Shown here piece by piece: positions 4,101 to 39,387 of a stretch of DNA of 64,000 nt. A program made the position numbers and the translations under genes. A model generated the notes under the pieces. It was not told the origin of the DNA and made no database searches. It was given only the letters and a program-made list of their open reading frames with translations. Each line of letters starts with the position of its first letter. The stretch's first letter is position 1. The stretch is from Umbilicaria muhlenbergii. Its lineage: Eukaryota > Ascomycota > Lecanoromycetes > Umbilicariales > Umbilicariaceae. Where the stretch lies: assembly GCA_000611775.1 (NCBI GenBank), contig KK106981.1, positions 9,448,497-9,512,496 on the forward strand. Direction: 5' to 3'.

Positions 4101-6215
4101 ACCCCTTGTCTACAGACGCTTGAGGGCCACACAGATGTGGTCACAGCTGTAGCTTTCTCTCGTGAAGGCACGCTGCTGGCGTCAGCCTCATGCGATAATA
4201 CAGTAAGGCTTTGGGATCCGGAAACAGGGATGCTGCGTAGCACGCTTGAAGGTCATACAGATTGGATTCAAACAATTGCGTTCTCCCATAACAGCATGCT
4301 GCTGGCGTCAGGATCAGATGATTTCACAATTCGAATCTGGAATCCAACAACAGGAGCGCTACGCAGCATGCTCAAAGGACATTTGGACAAAGTTCAAGCT
4401 GTAGTGTTTTCACATGAAGACACACAGCTAGCGTCAAGTTCATTTGATGGGACAGTTAAGCTCTGGGATCCAATGAATGGAACATTGCTTAACACGCTTA
4501 AAGGTCATGTTGGAAGAATCAACGCGTTGGCATTCTCACACAACAGTATGCAAATAGCGTCAGGCGCAGATGATCACGTTATACAGCTTTGGGATTCAGC
4601 AACTGGAGCACTACAAAATACACTTCAAGGCCATACAAAATCTGTTATGAAAGTGATATTTTCACATGATAATACACAATTAGCATCAAGCTCATGTGAT
4701 TGGACAGTACGGCTTTGGAACATGACCACAGGGCAGCTACGCAGTACATTTGAAAATAGCACTCATGCGTTGGCATTCTCCCGCGATGGCACGCAGCTGG
4801 CATCAGGCTCGCGCAATCATGTAGTACAAATTTGGGATTTGACTACATTAGCGCTACGCAGCTCGCTTGAGGGCCACACACAAAAGGTTCAATGTGTGTC
4901 GTTCTCACATAACAGCGCACTGCTGGCGTCAGGATCAAGCGATAGAACGATACGACTGTGGAATACAGTAACAGGGACGCTACATAGTCTTCTCAGTGGT
5001 CATATAGGTTATGTTGGTACCATGGAATTCTCACACGATAGCACGCAGCTGGCTTCAGGCTCAACTGATAAAACGGTGCGGCTCTGGGATCTTGCAAAAA
5101 GGACGTTACGCGGCAACATGCTTGCAGGCCGTACAGATCATTTTGGAAGAATAACATTATCACCTGACTGCACACAGCTGGCGTCAGAGACATATGGTTG
5201 TCCGGTTCAGTTGCGGCTTTGGGATGTGGCAACCGGGGCACTGCAAAACACGCTTGAAGGTCATATTGGCTTGAGTATCACGTCGACTTTTTCACATGAC
5301 GGCACTCGGCTGGCGTCATCCTCGATCCTTCGCGTGGTGGATCTCTTGCGAGACCAACCGATATTGCTACAGGATCCAGCAACAGGAGCACTGCTAAACA
5401 CGCTTGAGGGCCATACAGATTCTGTCAGGTCAATAGCATTTTCGCCAGATAATACACAGCTGGCATCAGGCTCAGAGGATAAAACAATACGGCTGTGGGA
5501 TTCAGTGACTGGAGCCCTGCGCAATACGCTTCAGGGCCATGAAGATCGAGTGACGCAAGTAACATTCTCACGTGATGGCACGCAGTTAGCGTCAAGTTCA
5601 TTTGATGGGACAGTTAAGCTCTGGGATCCGTTAAAGGGAGCACTGCGTACATTCAATGGCCATACTCGTTACGTCCATGTGGTTACATTCTCGCATGACG
5701 GTATGCAGCTGGCATCGGGCTCAGGTGACAAGACAGTACGAATATGGAGACTTGTTGCGGAGCCGCCATGTTCATGTTATGTGCTTGAAGGCCATTCAGG
5801 TTGTGTCACAGCCATAGCGTTCTCGCATAGTGGTACGCAGCTTGCGTCATATTCAGAAGATAACACAGTGCGGGTCTGGGACCTAACAATGAGGACGACC
5901 CTCCAGACCTTCGAAGTTTTAGGTGTCACTAAGCTATCTTTCTCTGCTGACGACGCATTTGTTCAGACGAACTGTGGTCAGATACAACTTACAAATACTT
6001 CCAATCATCAGAGCCAATTATTACTTAACAAGCGTTGGGTATTGAACAACGACTTCTTAATCCAGGATACCTGTAAGATGCTCTGGATTCCGCGAGACTT
6101 TCGACCTGATAGACCTGATGTCATGGACTCTAATGGCCATTTATTTGTGTTGGGCCTCGGATCACATCGCATAGTCTTCATCGGTGTTGACCCAGATTTT
6201 GTGCAGATGCGATAG
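1190..6215 (+). CDS. NLR-like STAND protein: PNP-NACHT-WD40
   Basis: This is a fungal NOD-like receptor candidate of the HET-E/HET-D/NWD class, about 1,630 residues over at least three exons. The N-terminal nucleoside-phosphorylase-like domain (about 1230-2160) opens with DYTVGWICAIS and contains GLMVGIGGGAP and CFEMEAAG. The NACHT domain follows (about 2400-3300), with Walker A GMAGTGKST and Walker B LVVDALDEC. Fourteen WD40 repeats run from 4119 to about 5910. Introns fitted by phase are 2195-2246 and 3839-3896; the second has a CTGAC branch site. The start is unresolved because the first exon lies upstream of 1190. In characterised relatives the WD repeats sense a ligand and the NACHT domain oligomerises, in heterokaryon incompatibility or defence; that role is inferred here. 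No frame break is seen after splicing. Third positions are less C/G-rich than in the core genes to the right. Confidence 0.9.
4119..5910 (+). repeat. Fourteen tandem WD40 repeats, about 126 nt each
   Basis: Each unit encodes about 42 residues of the form LEGHTxxVxxxxFSxDxTQLASGSxDxTVRLWDxxTGxL. Eleven units fit the consensus closely. Unit 6 lacks the GH pair and is shorter, unit 9 has GR instead of GH, and unit 10 carries extra residues in its second half. Units 3 and 12 share an identical 43-nt block at 4429-4471 and 5587-5629, which suggests exchange between repeats. Fourteen units would make two seven-bladed propellers. Confidence 0.9.
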
Positions 6216-12830: not shown

Positions 12831-13825
12831 TCTAGGAGTGCTGTGAGCTAAATGAGCGAGTAGAAGTGGGAATATATGTGCTTACGAGGAATGTTGTCTC
12901 TGTGTATACTTGTGCGGTAAATGCCTAAAATGACCCCCCCCAACTTGTAAATTCCCGGAATAACCCCCAAAACTTCATAATTCCTCGTTTGACCCTCAGC
13001 CTTCTATAGAGGTGCTTTCAGGCTGACTTTCATGCATTTATTTGTATGACTCAGGTTGTTTAAAACGGGTCTGAACTCACTCTGATCTACAGTCTACTCA
13101 TCATTAACTCGCCTGCTTCTTTTCTTTGTGAAGCTCTTGATAGGTTCATGTAATCGTGCCTCGCCAACTAGAATTCAGCACTCTCCGGTTGAGTTTTCAA
13201 TTATAATCTTAACTAAACTTTTAATCGTGCTTTGCTTACTAATAATCGTTCACACGATTACTTAACAATGAACATCATAAGTATGCGACAACACAAATGT
13301 TTTCTACACCCACCTTTGAATCAATTTATCCCCTAATATTAATTTGATTGAGGAAAGAACAGTGCAGACATTTTTATTCTTCAATATTTTTAGGGGGTCA
13401 AACGAGGAATTATGAAGGTTTGGGGGTTATTCCGGGAATTTACAAGTTGGGGGGGGTCATTTTAGGCATTTACCGCACAAGTATACACAGAGACAACATT
13501 CCTCGTAAGCACATATATTCCCACTTCTACTCGCTCATTTAGCTCACAGCACTCCTAGATGTTGCATGTGGAAAATCGTTCGTCCGCCCCGCCCTGCAGC
13601 AGCCAATATATGCCCGTAGCAGGCATCATGCCTACATGCGCTCGGCCCGACTATAGGCGCTCGGTCAATGTAGGCGAGCACCGAGAAAGCCGATATGGGG
13701 GGTTATTTAATGTGCCCTGATTTCTACGAAGACTGCTTGCTTCTACACGTTCATTTATATCAATTGGAGCGGTATTTAGCTAGATATAATACATCTATTT
13801 GGCCTCTATATCGCCCCATTGCAAC
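12565..13825. repeat. 1.26 kb near-perfect inverted repeat (palindrome)
   Basis: The left arm 12565-12995 and right arm 13395-13825 are reverse complements over 431 bp with two visible mismatches, separated by a 399-bp A/T-rich spacer. The outer 265 bp of each arm are LTR copies A and B. The inner 166 bp, including a run of eight C or G, are another sequence shared only by the two arms. The arms are therefore not just two LTRs in opposite orientation. An inverted duplication of an LTR plus its flank fits best. Confidence 0.9.
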
Positions 13826-23575: not shown

Positions 23576-26500
23576 TTGATTGGTTCTCAAAGTTTGTTAT
23601 GATTGTTGAGTGGTTGAAGGGACCCTCAGCTGAGGACTGTCACTTATTTTGTGCAAACGCCTTGCGTTTGATCTGTGTTATGATCACCGGTTTACGCTGA
23701 CATGTCCTAAATGGGGAATGATCTAGGCCAGCTTGCTTTATTCATGGAAGGGAATCCTTAGCGACGACAGGCACTTCGTCTGGTAATCAAGACTCCCAAT
23801 CCTGGAGCATTTCTTCACAGGACTCGAGCGATTCCACTTGGCCCGAGACTGCTTGGCCGTGCGCGTTGGATTTTCTCAATGAATCGCCTCATTATCTTCG
23901 AGAAATTGCTGAGATTCAAAACATATAAAAGCTCAACTTTCTCTTGGACAACAAATGCTTGACGGCCAGGATGCAGTATCTCTTCGAAAACAGCCTCCTC
24001 AAGCGGCTCCACATCGCAATCCTTAGACGCATATGCACCAATTTGCCCAGCGCTGCAGCAGCTTGTTTGTCTTCAGTAAAGAGCGAGCACCATTCCCTCT
24101 TTCACAAACACTGGGTTCTTATGCTCATGTGCGAAGGACGGAGCGAGCGATGCATTCCGGGAGTTAAAGCAAGCTAGTCATAATTCCAAGCCAGTGCCAC
24201 GTATCTATCTGGTCTGTCGAACTATATCATCGGAAATTCATGAGGAATAGTGAGTGCACGATTGCCAACTTGTCTGGCTCATGGTCTGCATCATATATGA
24301 CTGCTTTTCTCTTGGAACGCGTCATGCGCGCTTCTCGCCTTGATTTAAAGGAGGAAATCTGGAGCCGGAAGACCTCGCAGTGGCCCGCGGCCATGAAAAG
24401 GACTGCTCGCACAAGGAGATACAAAAGAACGTTGGGTAAGATTACGGTACCTTGAAGCAAATTCCTGGCGGTCTAGGGTAGGATAACGAGGATGCACGTA
24501 CATGAAGCGAACATGAAGCTACTCTTGGCAAACCTCAGGCACCAGCAAGGTGGTAGCTCCCTGCTGATCAAGCAGTGCCGGTGTCGAATCATCTTCATCT
24601 CTACGTTCTTCTGTTGACTCCTGCTTGATGTCAATGGCAAGTGGTAAAGGAGCTTATTTGCTGGTTGACGGGATTTGGGGTTGGCCTGCTGCGCCAAATG
24701 AGGGACCCGAATGTCATGCCCAGATAGACAACCGGTCGCGCTGGCCTCAAGATTCCGCCGCTTGCTCTGGCTCTAAGTCCTCCTTATTGAGTTTTCACTG
24801 TCGCCTGCTTAGTGGCTTGGCATCCCCCCTCTATATATTCGCACCACTTTTCGTAGCAATCGAACTCTAGTCAATCCGTTGAATAAATTCAACAGTCCTT
24901 ACGCATTTAGACACACAGAGTTTCTAGCCCTTGGTTACAACTGCGATTAACCTCCAGTGCCAAGCTTTATTGACCAGCATTGTATCAATCACTCCCCAAT
25001 AGTATTAAGTCTAAAGAAGCGTTCTTGAACGAAAAAGGCTTGATGACATCTGTTGGCGTCGTTAGGGCTAGCTTTTGAGCGGGCGTAGGTGCAACCCTTT
25101 CCGTTCGGCCTCGTCTTGGCTCAATCAGGCGGCATTCAAGATTCTCTCCTTCACATTTAGAACTTAGGAGTGTTACTCTCGGACAAAACCCTTCCCCTGG
25201 AGGACATTACCGATAAGTTTGAAGACGAGGTCATCGTACGCTTCGCCGATGCGACGCAGAAGCAGCGCTCGAGTCTTATAGCGGCAATGGTGGCTGAGGA
25301 CGAGGAGAAGAAATGCAGTGCAAACAACCTAGAGAAATCTCCCAAAAGTACCTCTGTGCATGTCTAAACAGGGCAATCATGAGGTTACATGACGCCTACA
25401 GAGATATGTTATTCTGCGATTATCTATGAAGGAGGTGGCAGAATGGCTGTTCTCGCTAGTGATATTGCAATTGTCTTATTATACCAGTGTCTCTAAAAGA
25501 TTTTTTATTTAATACATATAACGTGGTATGCTTGCCCAAAAAGGAAGCTTGCGATAACACCGAATATGCCGCTTATATAGCAGATGAACAAGCCAGATAC
25601 GTGCTTGCCTTTCGGGGTGTAATCATTCAATGTGGGTAAGCGATAAAAAGCAGAAACGTTGAGAGAACGGGGCGGCTATACCTTGTGTAACCCTCTCATA
25701 CCGCTCATGCACAACTTCCTGGAGGATTCTCTCGTTCACCGCAGTGCATATCCGCAGCTCAAAGGTCGTTCAAAGGGGAGAGTGGGGTTCTGGTATGCAT
25801 GTCAGCTTGCGATCAGTGACTGTTGTGTGAAACCCCTCTTCTTGTTCTCATGAGCTTGAAAGCTACAAGGAGCTTTCATCACACTTCCAAAATTGGAAAG
25901 CACTAAATGTCCTCTACAATATTTCCACAGCGGCAAGGTAGGAGTTTGAATCACATACAACTACAAACATCTATTCATAAATGTGATCTAGCTTTGCACA
26001 GCTCAACCAGCCATGGAAGATTGCTGAACACGACTCACTTGCAAATATTCTTCTTTTTGATGTGGTTCGATGCGTTTGGGTCTGATTATTTCTGACCTCC
26101 ACGAGAGCGTCAAATCAAACGCTACTGCAGATGGCGGGCCGAGAGCTTAGATGGAACAGCCAGACCCCTTCTTGGCAAGGCGTGCCTATAATTCTCTTTT
26201 TTTCGCCATCTTTCAAGTCCAAGAGATCAGGTGCTCTCTCTTCAGTCTACCAACCGACACGCGCAGTCCCTCCACGATGCAATTTCCTTCGCGAGGCAAG
26301 TTCGAGCCTGGGATTAGTTCCTGTTGGAAGGTACCCCTCGATCCCCGAACATCAAGCTATCCAGTAAGCTTGGACTGGCCCCATGGGGTTGAAAGCGTCT
26401 CGGGGCGAGTCGATTATTCTAAGTCCAGTGCAAAGGTTAAGACCGACTGGCTGGATCGAATTGGACTACTACTAACCCTGCCGAAGAAGCCAGAAGTCAT

Positions 26501-32510: not shown

Positions 32511-34050
32511 GAGATGACTCTGTAGATCGGTATCGCGACAGATGTTGCCCCAAAGATGAAAACAGAACGAAACGGCGGCGAGTGCTTCAAATAGAATCAA
32601 GATAGTGGAGTAATGTTTGGTGACCGATGTCAAAAACTCTGCACATATCAAGGGACTCGTGCTTGTCTAAAGCAAGGCCAAACAAGGAGGGCAACACGGC
32701 ATTATATCTAAGGTCAGAAAGCACAAACTCTTGAGTGTGGCATAGCACAAATTTAGCGGCATTTTTGTTTCAAAAATGGGCATGGGTAAGATAACATGTA
32801 ACTGGCCAAATCATCATTCACACTTGGGAGGTGTGATATTGACTGTGCCATTTCAACCACCCCACCGTGCCCGTCAAGGAGAAATACCGTTACAGCGAGC
32901 TGAAGATTGGCTTAAACAATTGGCTAACGGTCTTGCAGCGGAAACGTGGCTCTCGCTGTGCCTCGAGACAAACCTTATCGAGCAGACTCCATCAGTAAAG
33001 CCATACAAGTAAGAAATGTGCCTTTCCGCAAGCTGAAAATAGATTTAGGATAATAATGAGTTCATCATGCTTCGCGGGGAAAGTGTGGCGACTGACATGG
33101 CCCTTCCATTGAAAGGCTGAGAAGGAAGCCAAAATGAGGGATGAAGGTTGACCGAGGAAGATCGAAGAGATGCTGCTGCCGATGGGACCAAAGCAATGTC
33201 AACGCAAATTGGAAGTCGAGGACGAAATGGTAGGACACGGTCCAAGCGTGACGGCAGCTAGCGAGGTACGTGGGGAACGCGGGGGGCACTCAGCCACCAC
33301 GCGGCAGCATCAATTCGCCGAGAGAGCCCCAGAACAAGCGGCGCATTGGCGAGCCTTATCTTTGCATCCTTACGGACGACCAGTAAAGGTGCGACACGTT
33401 ATTCGAATTGTAGATCAATGATATTTACGGAGCCGTTAAGTGATGGCCTGCGCCTTGATACTGCATCCGTCACATGCAGTTGGGTTGCAGCGGGTTTGCA
33501 CAAGTCGGGGCAGAAATAGAGCAGATGCGGGAATTTCTCCGGCAGTGAGGCGGGGGCGGCGGCGACAGCGAGGCAGCTGCCATGAGGTGGTTGAGGGTGA
33601 AGGGTGATGGTGTGAGCAGCAGGTTTCATGCGTGTGGCACATACATGCAGTCACACATGCAGCACCGAGGCGCGAGTCATCACTTATGATGTCTGTACGT
33701 CTGTAGATCTACTTGATTTATTCTGAGGGCTTCTTATTTCCGTACTCTAGATGAGAAACGATTTCTACAGGCTTCCGGGCTACATGAGATTGGGGTAGTA
33801 CATAACCCTTCCCGCCCCCCCAGCACCCAATGAGGTCCATACGACCTACAGTACACCGACAGCTGAAGAGGTCAACACAAAGACGCGAAACTTCACTCCC
33901 GAAGGCACAGCCCCAATTTCAGGGCTTTCGTTTTCGTCCCCTAACTCTTCGTTCATCTCGACTAGATACGCTCCAGCAAGCCGATGCCAAACCTCAGATG
34001 TTAAAAGCTTCTTGTCCCATCACGTAGCAGCCTATGAACTCGAGTCAGCT
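32511..34050. other. Intergenic between divergent genes
   Basis: About 1.5 kb separating the minus-strand rhodopsin-like gene from the plus-strand P450. It should hold both promoters. No gene is supported inside. Confidence 0.5.
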
Positions 34051-36105: not shown

Positions 36106-38124
36106 ATGGGGGACGATTATAACTTGATCATCGCTGGTGCAGGCAAGAAAGAAAATGCTTCCCAGCTTTGCAAGGTACACGTTGCTGACCAGATAGACAA
36201 CTAGGTCTCTATGGCATCCAAGCGGCCAGGACCTACTTGGAGGTCCATCCGACGTTTAAAGTCGTCATACTGGAGGGTGATTCTTGCCTAGGAGGAGCCT
36301 GGAGCTCAAGCATGTTTCTCTTCCGACCAACCACCTTCCGAGGGTGATAATAACCTCTATGACGCAACAGAGAGAATGTACGACGCCTTCTGGTCGCAAA
36401 CCCCCGTCGGAATGGCCGAATTCTCCGACAAGCCTCTCCTTCACCCTCCTAAAGAAGAAGATTACTACGGCTTCTTCCCAGCCAAGTACGTGACAAAGTA
36501 CATAGAAGAGTACGCCGACGATCACGTGTATGCGGGGCGAAGCCTACGTGATCGGATCCGGTTCAACTGCTACATTAAAGCTGCAAGGAGAGAAGGCGCA
36601 AAGTGGATTGTTTCTTGCGAAGAGAAGGGGAGCCCTCGGGTCTTTACCGCTCCTAAGCTGATGGTTGCAACTGGTCTCTCGTCGAAGCCTAACATGCCTG
36701 TGTTTCCGAACCAAGGCGCTTTCAAAGGGCTCATAATGCACCACAAGGACTTTGGGGAGTCTTCTGTCTTAGCATCGTCAGATGCCGAACGTGTCTGCAT
36801 CATTGGTGGAGGGAAATCCGCAGCAGACGTCGTATATGGGTGTGCCAAAGCGGGGAAGACAGTGTCTTGGATCATCCGCAAGAATGGTAGCGGTCCATCA
36901 GCACTTGTGCCGGCGAAGGGGAATGGGCCATATCGGAACGCCAATGAGACAGTAGACACACGGACGTTTTCGCTCTTGAATCCATCTCTGTTTGTACCGC
37001 AGATATGGGTGACCAGGTTCCTGCATCAAAGCCGGATAGGAAGAAGACTTGTGGGTTGGATCTGGGATAAGGTAGACGCGAAGAACCGCCGAGTGGCCGA
37101 TTACAGGAGGCCCGACGGTCGAGGCAACGGCTTTGAGAAATTGGAACCTGATACGCCGTAAGTTGTCTTTGCTATTCATGGTTCGCATTTCACATGGGCC
37201 TTGTCACAACCGCACACCTCTTCCCCCGACCGTGCCTCTTACCCTACAAACAGCCTTGTGCTTTTCAAGATCTGCGGATCCACCTCCAGTCCCCGTACTT
37301 GCTAACCTGGAGCACTCCTCATCGCACGCTCCTCATCAACCGAGATCACGCTTACAGTCAGCAGCCTGTTCTGGCAAAACGACAGCGCAGGCACAAACCA
37401 ACGACCTGACTACTGGGACACAATCGCGCAAAACGTCCACATCCACCGCCAAGACATCACCTCTCTGAACCTGACATCGATCGCTCTCTCCGACGGCACC
37501 AACATCCCAGCGGACGTCCTGATCTGCGCAACCGGCTGGCGAAACTCCCTCTCCATCTTCTCCGCCTCGGACACCGCCCGACTTGGCCTCCCCCATCCAA
37601 TCTCTTCCCTCCCTCCCAAAACCGCCTCAAAATGGGACCACCTAAACGCCACAGCCGACCGATCCATCCTCTCCACATTTCCCTCCCTAGCCCACCCACC
37701 ACCGCACCACGAGACCCCCCCGACCCACTCCCCTTACCGCTTGTACCGAATGCTCGTCCCCACGTCCGACCCCGACCGCAGCATCGTATTCCTCGGGCAC
37801 ATGGTCGTGGGCAACAATTTCCGGGCCGCCGAATGCCAAGCTTTATGGGCGACTGCATACCTAGACGGCAGCCTTTCTCTACCGTCGACAGCGGCGATGG
37901 AAGAGCAGATCGCGGTGAGTAATGCGTGGAACCGACGGCGGTATTTGGCGAAAGGGATGGCTGGGAATTGGTTTTATTACGATTTGATTCCGTACACGGA
38001 TCTACTTTTAAGGGAGGTGGGGGTGGGGGTAAGGAAGAGAGGGTGGTGGGGGAGATGGTTCGGGCCGTGCGTGGCGGGGGATTTGAGGGGGGTTGTTGGG
38101 GAGTATAGGACTTTGTATAGTTGA
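36106..38124 (+). CDS. FAD-dependent monooxygenase (FMO/BVMO-like)
   Basis: A four-exon gene of 563 residues: 36106-36142, 36205-36313, 36375-37157 and 37362-38124. The first intron begins with GC rather than GT (gcaaga, CTGAC branch), and this gives the FAD motif IIAGAGLYG (GxGxxG). The second intron (gtttct...cagagag) restores GGAWSSSIMYDAFWSQTP. The third is long (204 nt), and its exact acceptor near 37361 is less certain. NADPH motif: CIIGGGKSAADV. The FMO-type ATG motif is LICATGWRNSL. The family inserts oxygen into carbon or heteroatom substrates; fungal members often belong to secondary-metabolite pathways. With the P450 just upstream it may form a small oxidative gene pair. The 3' end is strikingly G-rich. 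Confidence 0.87.
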
Positions 38125-38379
38125 TATAAGAATGCGTCTGCAGTCCTAAAGTAATCGGGGTCATACCGGTCTTCTGCCTTGCCCAGGGCTACCTTATCCT
38201 GTTATCTTAAGCGAAAGCGGTCAACCACCTTCCCCAGCTTACCTCTCCCCTACCTTGAACACCACATCTAATACTACACCATCAGACCGCCCGCCACTCC
38301 ACGACCTCCATCCCTCACCACGACCTCCTCTTCATCACACCCTCACGCACCTCATCACCATTGACACCTCCAACCAACC

Positions 38380-38779
38380 ATGTCCGCCGCCCCCAACCCC
38401 CCCACCAAAACCACAACCTCCACACCCGCCCCCGGCCCCCGCGCCCCCAAAAGCGAATACATCTCCACCGACACCGGCAACAAAATCTCGCGGCGCTCCC
38501 AAATCCACGGCACGCAAAACATAATCCTGGGCGGCCGAACCGTGATCCAAGCGCACGCCATCCTCCGCGGGGATCTAGTCCGGCTCCCTTCCTCCACCAC
38601 CACGTCGAACGCCTCGTCGACTTCGAACCCTTCTACCGCCGCCGCCGCCGCTGCTCCGACCAGCACCCAGAACAAACCCGCCATCTCCATCTCCCTCGGC
38701 CGATACACCCTCATCTCCCCACACACGATCCTGCACCCGCCCCTTCTCCCCTCCTCTACCCCCTCTCCCTCATCCACTT
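38380..38779 (+). pseudogene. Dynactin subunit p25 (DCTN5-like), 5' half only
   Basis: The ATG at 38380 opens a clear dynactin p25 N-terminus: [43 protein letters not shown], then a low-complexity Ser/Thr/Ala insert and [17 protein letters not shown]. p25 is a left-handed beta-helix protein of the dynactin pointed end, normally about 180-230 residues. Here homology stops after about 125 residues in a Ser/Pro-rich low-complexity run, and the rest of the helix is absent. Reading on in the p25 frame gives 30 unrelated residues and a stop at 38850. The next recognisable sequence is the end of NudC, in another frame. No splice site lies at the junction. Confidence 0.8.
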
Positions 38780-38968
38780 ACGCCCGAGAACAGCAAGCTG
38801 AGCGATTTGGACGGCGAGACGAGGAGTATGGTGGAGAAAATGATGTATGATCAGCGGCAGAAGGAGATGGGGAGGCCGACGAGTGATGAGGAGAAGAAAC
38901 AGGATATGTTGAGAAGGTTCCAGGAACAGCATCCCGAGATGGATTTTTCGAAGGCGAAGATCGGGTGA
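38780..38968 (+). pseudogene. NudC C-terminal end, fused to p25 remnant
   Basis: From 38780 one frame reads [45 protein letters not shown] and [15 protein letters not shown], then stops at 38966-38968. This is the conserved C-terminus of nuclear distribution protein NudC, whose p23-like domain should come before it. That domain is absent; the upstream sequence is dynactin p25 in another frame. Both proteins act in the dynein/nuclear migration pathway. The join is either a deletion between two neighbouring genes or an assembly error at the low-complexity run. Confidence 0.85.
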
Positions 38969-39387
38969 GCGGGGTGGGGGTGGGCAGGGAATCGAGAGGG
39001 TTGGGGGGGGGGGGGGGGGGGGGGTGGGGGAGGGGGGGGAGGGGGGGGAGTTGCGGGAGGTGTGGAGGGGGGTGGGGTGAGGGGGTGGTGGGTGGGTTGT
39101 TGCTCCGGGGGCGGGGGGGGATGGAGGGGAAGGGGGTGGATGGGGAAGGAAGGGGGAAGAGGATGGAGAGGAAGGGGGTTCGATGAGGAAGGGGGGAAGA
39201 GGATGAGCTACTGGGGTTTGAATGCGAGGATTGGCTGATTGATTGGAGCGACGTGATACCCCCCCGAGAGCGGAACGTTACTTTAAAGAACCAGAGAGAG
39301 ATACGGGAAAAGACTTTTGTTTGAGAGTCAAGCTTTGGTTTTGAGCTCAGAAGCGCTACATGTCTTCCACATTGTTGCCGAAAGTTC
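38969..39387. repeat. G-rich low-complexity tract with a run of 22 G
   Basis: The stretch 38967-39205 is almost only G with scattered T and A on the plus strand. It includes 22 consecutive G at 39003-39024 and many GGG/GGGG runs, so G-quadruplex structures are likely. From 39206 to 39387 there is ordinary 3' flank of the phosphomannose isomerase gene. Confidence 0.9.

Follow-up and report, generated by a model that had tools for sequence, protein, structure and literature searches.

As assembled, the 64-kb stretch of DNA analysed here (the window) carries a gene for the dynactin subunit p25 (DCTN5) within which lies a fragment of a second gene, encoding NudC. Over its 244 bases the fragment shows no difference from the 3' end of a NudC gene that is itself intact, and since that gene is located on another contig (C3, at about 5.45 Mb, with the window on C1) and only these 244 bases were copied, a deletion fusing two neighbouring genes, as proposed in an earlier sequence-only reading, is not supported. 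We consider the join to be probably a fault of assembly or polishing, because the copy is perfect, a homopolymer marks its right join and searches did not recover the conserved middle of p25.

The p25 and NudC parts of the locus

The frame that begins with the ATG at 38380 matches the Pfam family DCTN5 (PF21711) over its residues 24-69, with an E value of 5.9e-11 (profile positions 10-55 of 182) and a score of 42.8 bits, above the family cut-off of 40 bits. The same frame matches the mammalian dynactin subunit 5 chains in the PDB (E 3.5e-11). Residue 69 is followed by a low-complexity Ser/Thr/Ala insertion and, further on, by a 15-residue segment GRY...HPP (38698-38742), which we take to align with GRH...RPP of human p25. 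The Ser/Pro run previously noticed at the join is present, but it still belongs to the p25 frame (Table 1), and C makes up 53 of the 100 bases in 38700-38799. On entering the NudC copy, the p25 frame is out of phase with that of NudC and soon meets a stop, giving 156 residues if unspliced. As assembled, such a product would be a truncated p25 that reaches no further than the beginning of the beta-helix, and would not be a fusion protein. A complete left-handed beta-helix was not found, given that the DCTN5 profile has no match beyond position 55 at the window locus. Compared with p25 of other organisms (DCTN5; ropy-12 in Neurospora), the window gene is alike at the N-terminal residues 24-69 and differs in lacking most of the beta-helix and in carrying the low-complexity insertion.

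The second part of the locus is an exact copy: window positions 38780-39023 correspond to 5027-5270 of the NudC locus on C3 (L003), with 244 of 244 bases identical, and the two loci no longer agree at the base immediately to its left. When the assembly was searched with 38300-39000 as a DNA query, two places were obtained: the window, and a C3 segment of 221 bases with 100% identity, a match that cannot be due to chance (E 1.9e-110). In translation, the last 62 residues of the frame 38579-38968 (TPENSK...SKAKIG) are identical to the C-terminus of the C3 protein. Thus a p25 start followed by a NudC C-terminus in another frame, as first read from the letters, is borne out by the DCTN5 match and by the exact block. 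The NudC part does not, however, finish at its stop codon (38966-38968): the identity covers 55 bases past it, made up of 34 bases and then the G tract that marks the right join.

On C3 the NudC gene is intact, with two exons, a 73-base intron and 192 encoded residues. Its protein contains a CS domain (PF04969, E 7.8e-21, residues 29-108) and matches solved NudC chains in the PDB, the best being 1wfi, a NudC homologue (E 8.4e-39), with 3qor at E 6.5e-29. The first base of the window copy corresponds to a point 165 bases inside exon 2, from which the copy extends through that exon into the sequence beyond; it is devoid of the CS domain: it begins at codon 131, past that domain, and its 63 residues gave no CS match.

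Table 1. Features of the p25 locus, in positions of the window.
Feature	Position	Strand	Evidence
Dynactin p25 (DCTN5) gene, 5' part, from ATG to HPP motif	38380-38742	+	Pfam PF21711; PDB dynactin subunit 5
Ser/Pro-coding, C-rich run before the join, still in the p25 frame	38743-38779	+	Translation; base counts
Exact copy of the NudC 3' end (codons 131-192, stop, 34 bases, 21 G; 244 bases)	38780-39023	+	Exact block with L003
Stop codon ending the p25 frame, inside the NudC copy	38848-38850	+	Translation
Right join, in a tract of 22 G	39003-39024	+	Comparison with the NudC locus (21 G)
G-rich stretch readable as VGEGGEGGELREVWRGVG-stop, possible last p25 codons	39024-39080	+	Score against a fungal p25 tail (weak)

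The joins, the sequence to their right and the search for p25

The two joins are of different kinds. At the left join (38780) the sequence changes abruptly after the C-rich run, with no low-complexity likeness to the donor and no shared sequence on the donor side. The right join falls in the G tract, within a block in which 79 of 100 bases are G. To the right of the exact block, blastn extended the likeness between the two loci by no more than about 18 bases, in which there are 4 mismatches and a gap; of a 91% match spanning 52 bases, 34 belong to the exact copy, so that it is no sign of likeness beyond the block. Quadruplex-type patterns are found at both loci, at 38998-39039 in the window and at 5245-5276 of L003, and within the window as a whole 8 such patterns are on the plus strand and 22 on the minus strand.

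The locus is flanked upstream by a flavin monooxygenase-like gene (36292-38124), whose first frame matches the Pfam FMO-like family (E 4.2e-11) and whose second frame has no family match, and downstream, on the opposite strand, by a mannose-6-phosphate isomerase gene (from 39388) with PMI type I domains. The coding strands within 37600-39200 shift from strongly C-rich to strongly G-rich, and in the monooxygenase-like gene the composition goes from 49 C to 55 G per 100 bases.

The G-rich stretch that follows the exact block may represent the surviving last codons of p25 itself, which we treat as a lead. Its reading resembles the end of fungal p25. Across the six frames of the 64-kb window the stretch was the top place for a fungal p25 tail chosen after the stretch had been seen, by a small margin over the next independent place (54 against 49 with a longer query, 47 against 38 with a shorter one). 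A Pfam search gave no match for these bases. If the tail is right, only the middle of p25 would be missing; by the length of the human protein, which we take to have 182 residues with RPP near residue 72, this would amount to about 250-290 bases, close to the size of the NudC piece. The p25 protein of A. nidulans is given as 202 residues (PMC6065395).

Intact copies of both genes had been expected elsewhere in the genome if the junction was real, and the assembly searches returned one for NudC, on C3, and none for p25. With the Pfam DCTN5 profile and E values up to 10, only the window exon was matched in the assembly. The C-terminal half of human p25 found no p25, an empty result that carries no weight by itself, and the C-terminal part of a fungal p25 gave nothing convincing, its best match being a 648-codon frame on C6 (E 0.03, 35% identity). 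The fungal query is sound by Pfam, scoring 125 bits against DCTN5 (E 3.1e-36, profile positions 58-163). All these searches proceed exon by exon, so that a heavily split gene could escape detection; within that scope, the conserved p25 middle with its beta-helix was not found in the 34.8-Mb assembly outside the window exon. The pointed-end partner subunit p62 is present (E 1.3e-116). Considering the presence of p62, and that dynactin5 is counted within the conserved core of dynactin (PMC3583065), a natural loss of p25 is unexpected.

Probable misassembly and its alternatives

An assembly error at a low-complexity run had already been suggested for this junction. It is the cause that we hold probable, although only the right join has a homopolymer, the left one being an abrupt change that follows a C-rich run. 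Several observations speak for it: the identity of 244 out of 244 bases includes the 55 bases after the stop and thereby the G tract, the right join lies where a false overlap is easy, in a 22-G tract within the block of 79 G per 100 bases, and the composition turns strongly, from 53 C to 79 G per 100 bases. When 12,001 bases around the join were searched against the assembly, one of the 13 matches listed elsewhere was more than 95% identical, namely the NudC copy (98%, 263 bases), and the remaining ones listed were ten places of one diverged repeat (65-85%) and two G-rich places. Other parts of the window do have short matches of near identity, as at 13393-13476.

In this explanation by misassembly, the true p25 gene probably runs on through the beta-helix repeats to the tail at 39024-39080, its middle having been swapped in the assembly for a fragment of the C3 NudC gene. 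The gene would change from C-rich to G-rich midway, as does the upstream monooxygenase-like gene, and would be hard to sequence there. A chimeric read or a local reassembly would have produced the abrupt left join, and a false overlap would have joined the NudC G tract to the end of p25, itself rich in G. Local misassembly and chimeric gap filling at GC-extreme, homopolymer-rich sequence are known kinds of fault, with which the locus shares the abrupt switch to foreign sequence, the identical donor elsewhere, the homopolymer at the other join and the loss of an expected gene segment. Our literature search returned no paper on poly-G misassembly.

Against a fault stands the rest of the assembly, which looks well resolved. 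Its seven contigs, the lack of any N in the window and the placement of G/C tracts of up to 46 bases together with many similar repeats give it a good appearance and suggest long reads. Genome searches with other G-tract loci, described below, also showed no like fault. A false overlap would moreover have only G runs to go by, because the two loci are alike for no more than those 18 or so bases past the block, and the left join has no low-complexity likeness to the donor. Should the fault be confirmed, gene catalogues drawn from this genome are wrongly without p25 and contain a false p25-NudC chimera, and the genes of this genome with G-rich 3' ends deserve checking.

The main alternative, which we regard as possible but not probable, is that the sequenced strain itself underwent the change, very recently, by a template switch that left p25 as a null or truncated allele. 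Replication or break repair would have come to a halt where the end of p25 is rich in G and, by way of the G tract common to both genes, moved onto the NudC 3' end; it would have copied 244 bases from the other chromosome and rejoined p25 without visible homology, with loss of the p25 middle. Template switching at G-rich DNA, through MMBIR or polymerase-theta end joining, is a known source of templated insertions; the locus resembles these in a short copy from a distant locus, an intact donor and what appears to be a short shared tract at one join with none seen on the donor side of the other, and differs from them in having also lost a large part of the recipient gene and in a copy so free of divergence that it must be very recent. 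A right join in a shared G tract together with an abrupt left join may be the trace of a template switch, although both joins fit either explanation. The quadruplex-type patterns at both loci and the good resolution of the assembly also favour a real event, but such patterns are common, 30 being found in the window on both strands. A real event further requires that conserved coding sequence was lost and that the copy, homopolymer included, remained free of mutation; the partner p62 has been retained, and events of this type would be rare a priori.

The loss of either gene had been described as usually severe, which does not hold for p25: the delta-p25 strain of A. nidulans forms colonies, and its defect concerns the transport of early endosomes, not the distribution of nuclei (PMC6065395), so that a p25 null is viable in that species. 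It is with some doubt that we entertain a wild filamentous fungus carrying a natural and very recent p25 null that arose by a template switch from the G-rich p25 end to the NudC G tract. Under such a natural null, two genes of the dynein pathway on different chromosomes would, just as doubtfully, owe their chance connection to the richness in G of their 3' ends. If the event is real, a filamentous fungus would carry p25 as a natural null, with early-endosome transport expected to fail and nuclear movement to persist, and the locus would be a clean case of G-tract template switching between chromosomes.

A retrocopy, or a NudC fragment carried into p25 by a transposon, would explain why the end of a gene recurs at a distant place. 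Nevertheless, we judge it very improbable, since the copy has no A tract at its end and finishes in a non-coding G tract; the loss of the intron is uninformative here because the copy starts within exon 2. Least credible of all is a fusion of p25 and NudC, whether as a working gene or through a deletion between neighbours. The adjacency of both sequences on one strand might be invoked for it, but the two frames differ, the p25 frame meets its stop within the copy, the copy is without the CS domain and NudC is intact on another contig. The observation that there is no splice site at the join holds, as no GT occurs in 38700-38799. Five GT are found in 38380-38699, none of which resembles the fungal donor consensus. 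A fusion protein is rejected on account of the frames and of the lack of GT near the join, with a cryptic intron inside the copy being formally possible by virtue of the GT at 38826, 38831 and 38845, before the stop. Among the literature matches listed, no title or abstract opening contained a p25-NudC fusion.

Other G tracts and repeats

The assembly has at least 17 separate runs of G or C that are 18 bases or longer, including the two of the NudC/p25 finding. The other 15 loci were inspected and three of them were used in whole-genome searches, which gave no like fault at two, the third being uninformative by its location in a dispersed repeat; a systematic fault at such tracts thus gained no support. 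Stretches of N are present at three of the 15 loci (L026, L052, L061) and were not taken as evidence of gaps. Near-identical sequence (95-100%, 56-379 bases) abuts the tract at L024, L053, L056, L057 and L061; at these five loci, tracts of 18-19 G or C lie beside GCAACGCCGCA or its complement, and the 95-100% sequence is common to several of them. We tentatively take the five for a single inverted-repeat element (GCAACGCCGCA...TGCGGCGTTGC), perhaps a homopolymer-centred mobile or hairpin element, and not for faults like the one discussed above.

An Rfam search of the window gave no match. The window contains several dispersed repeats, among them a near-identical one of 84 bases at 13393-13476, which is 98.8% identical to 2389-2472 of L024 (C1, about 6.01 Mb). 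A repeat of about 265 bases at 33426-33692 has inverted ends (TAAGTGATG...CATCACTTA) and resembles a MITE; among the matches listed it recurs, whole or in part, in at least 10 other places with 65-85% identity. Finally, a 110-base repeat at 24784-24894 has about 50 matches in the assembly among those listed, some of them paired about 425 bases apart, and may be part of an LTR.
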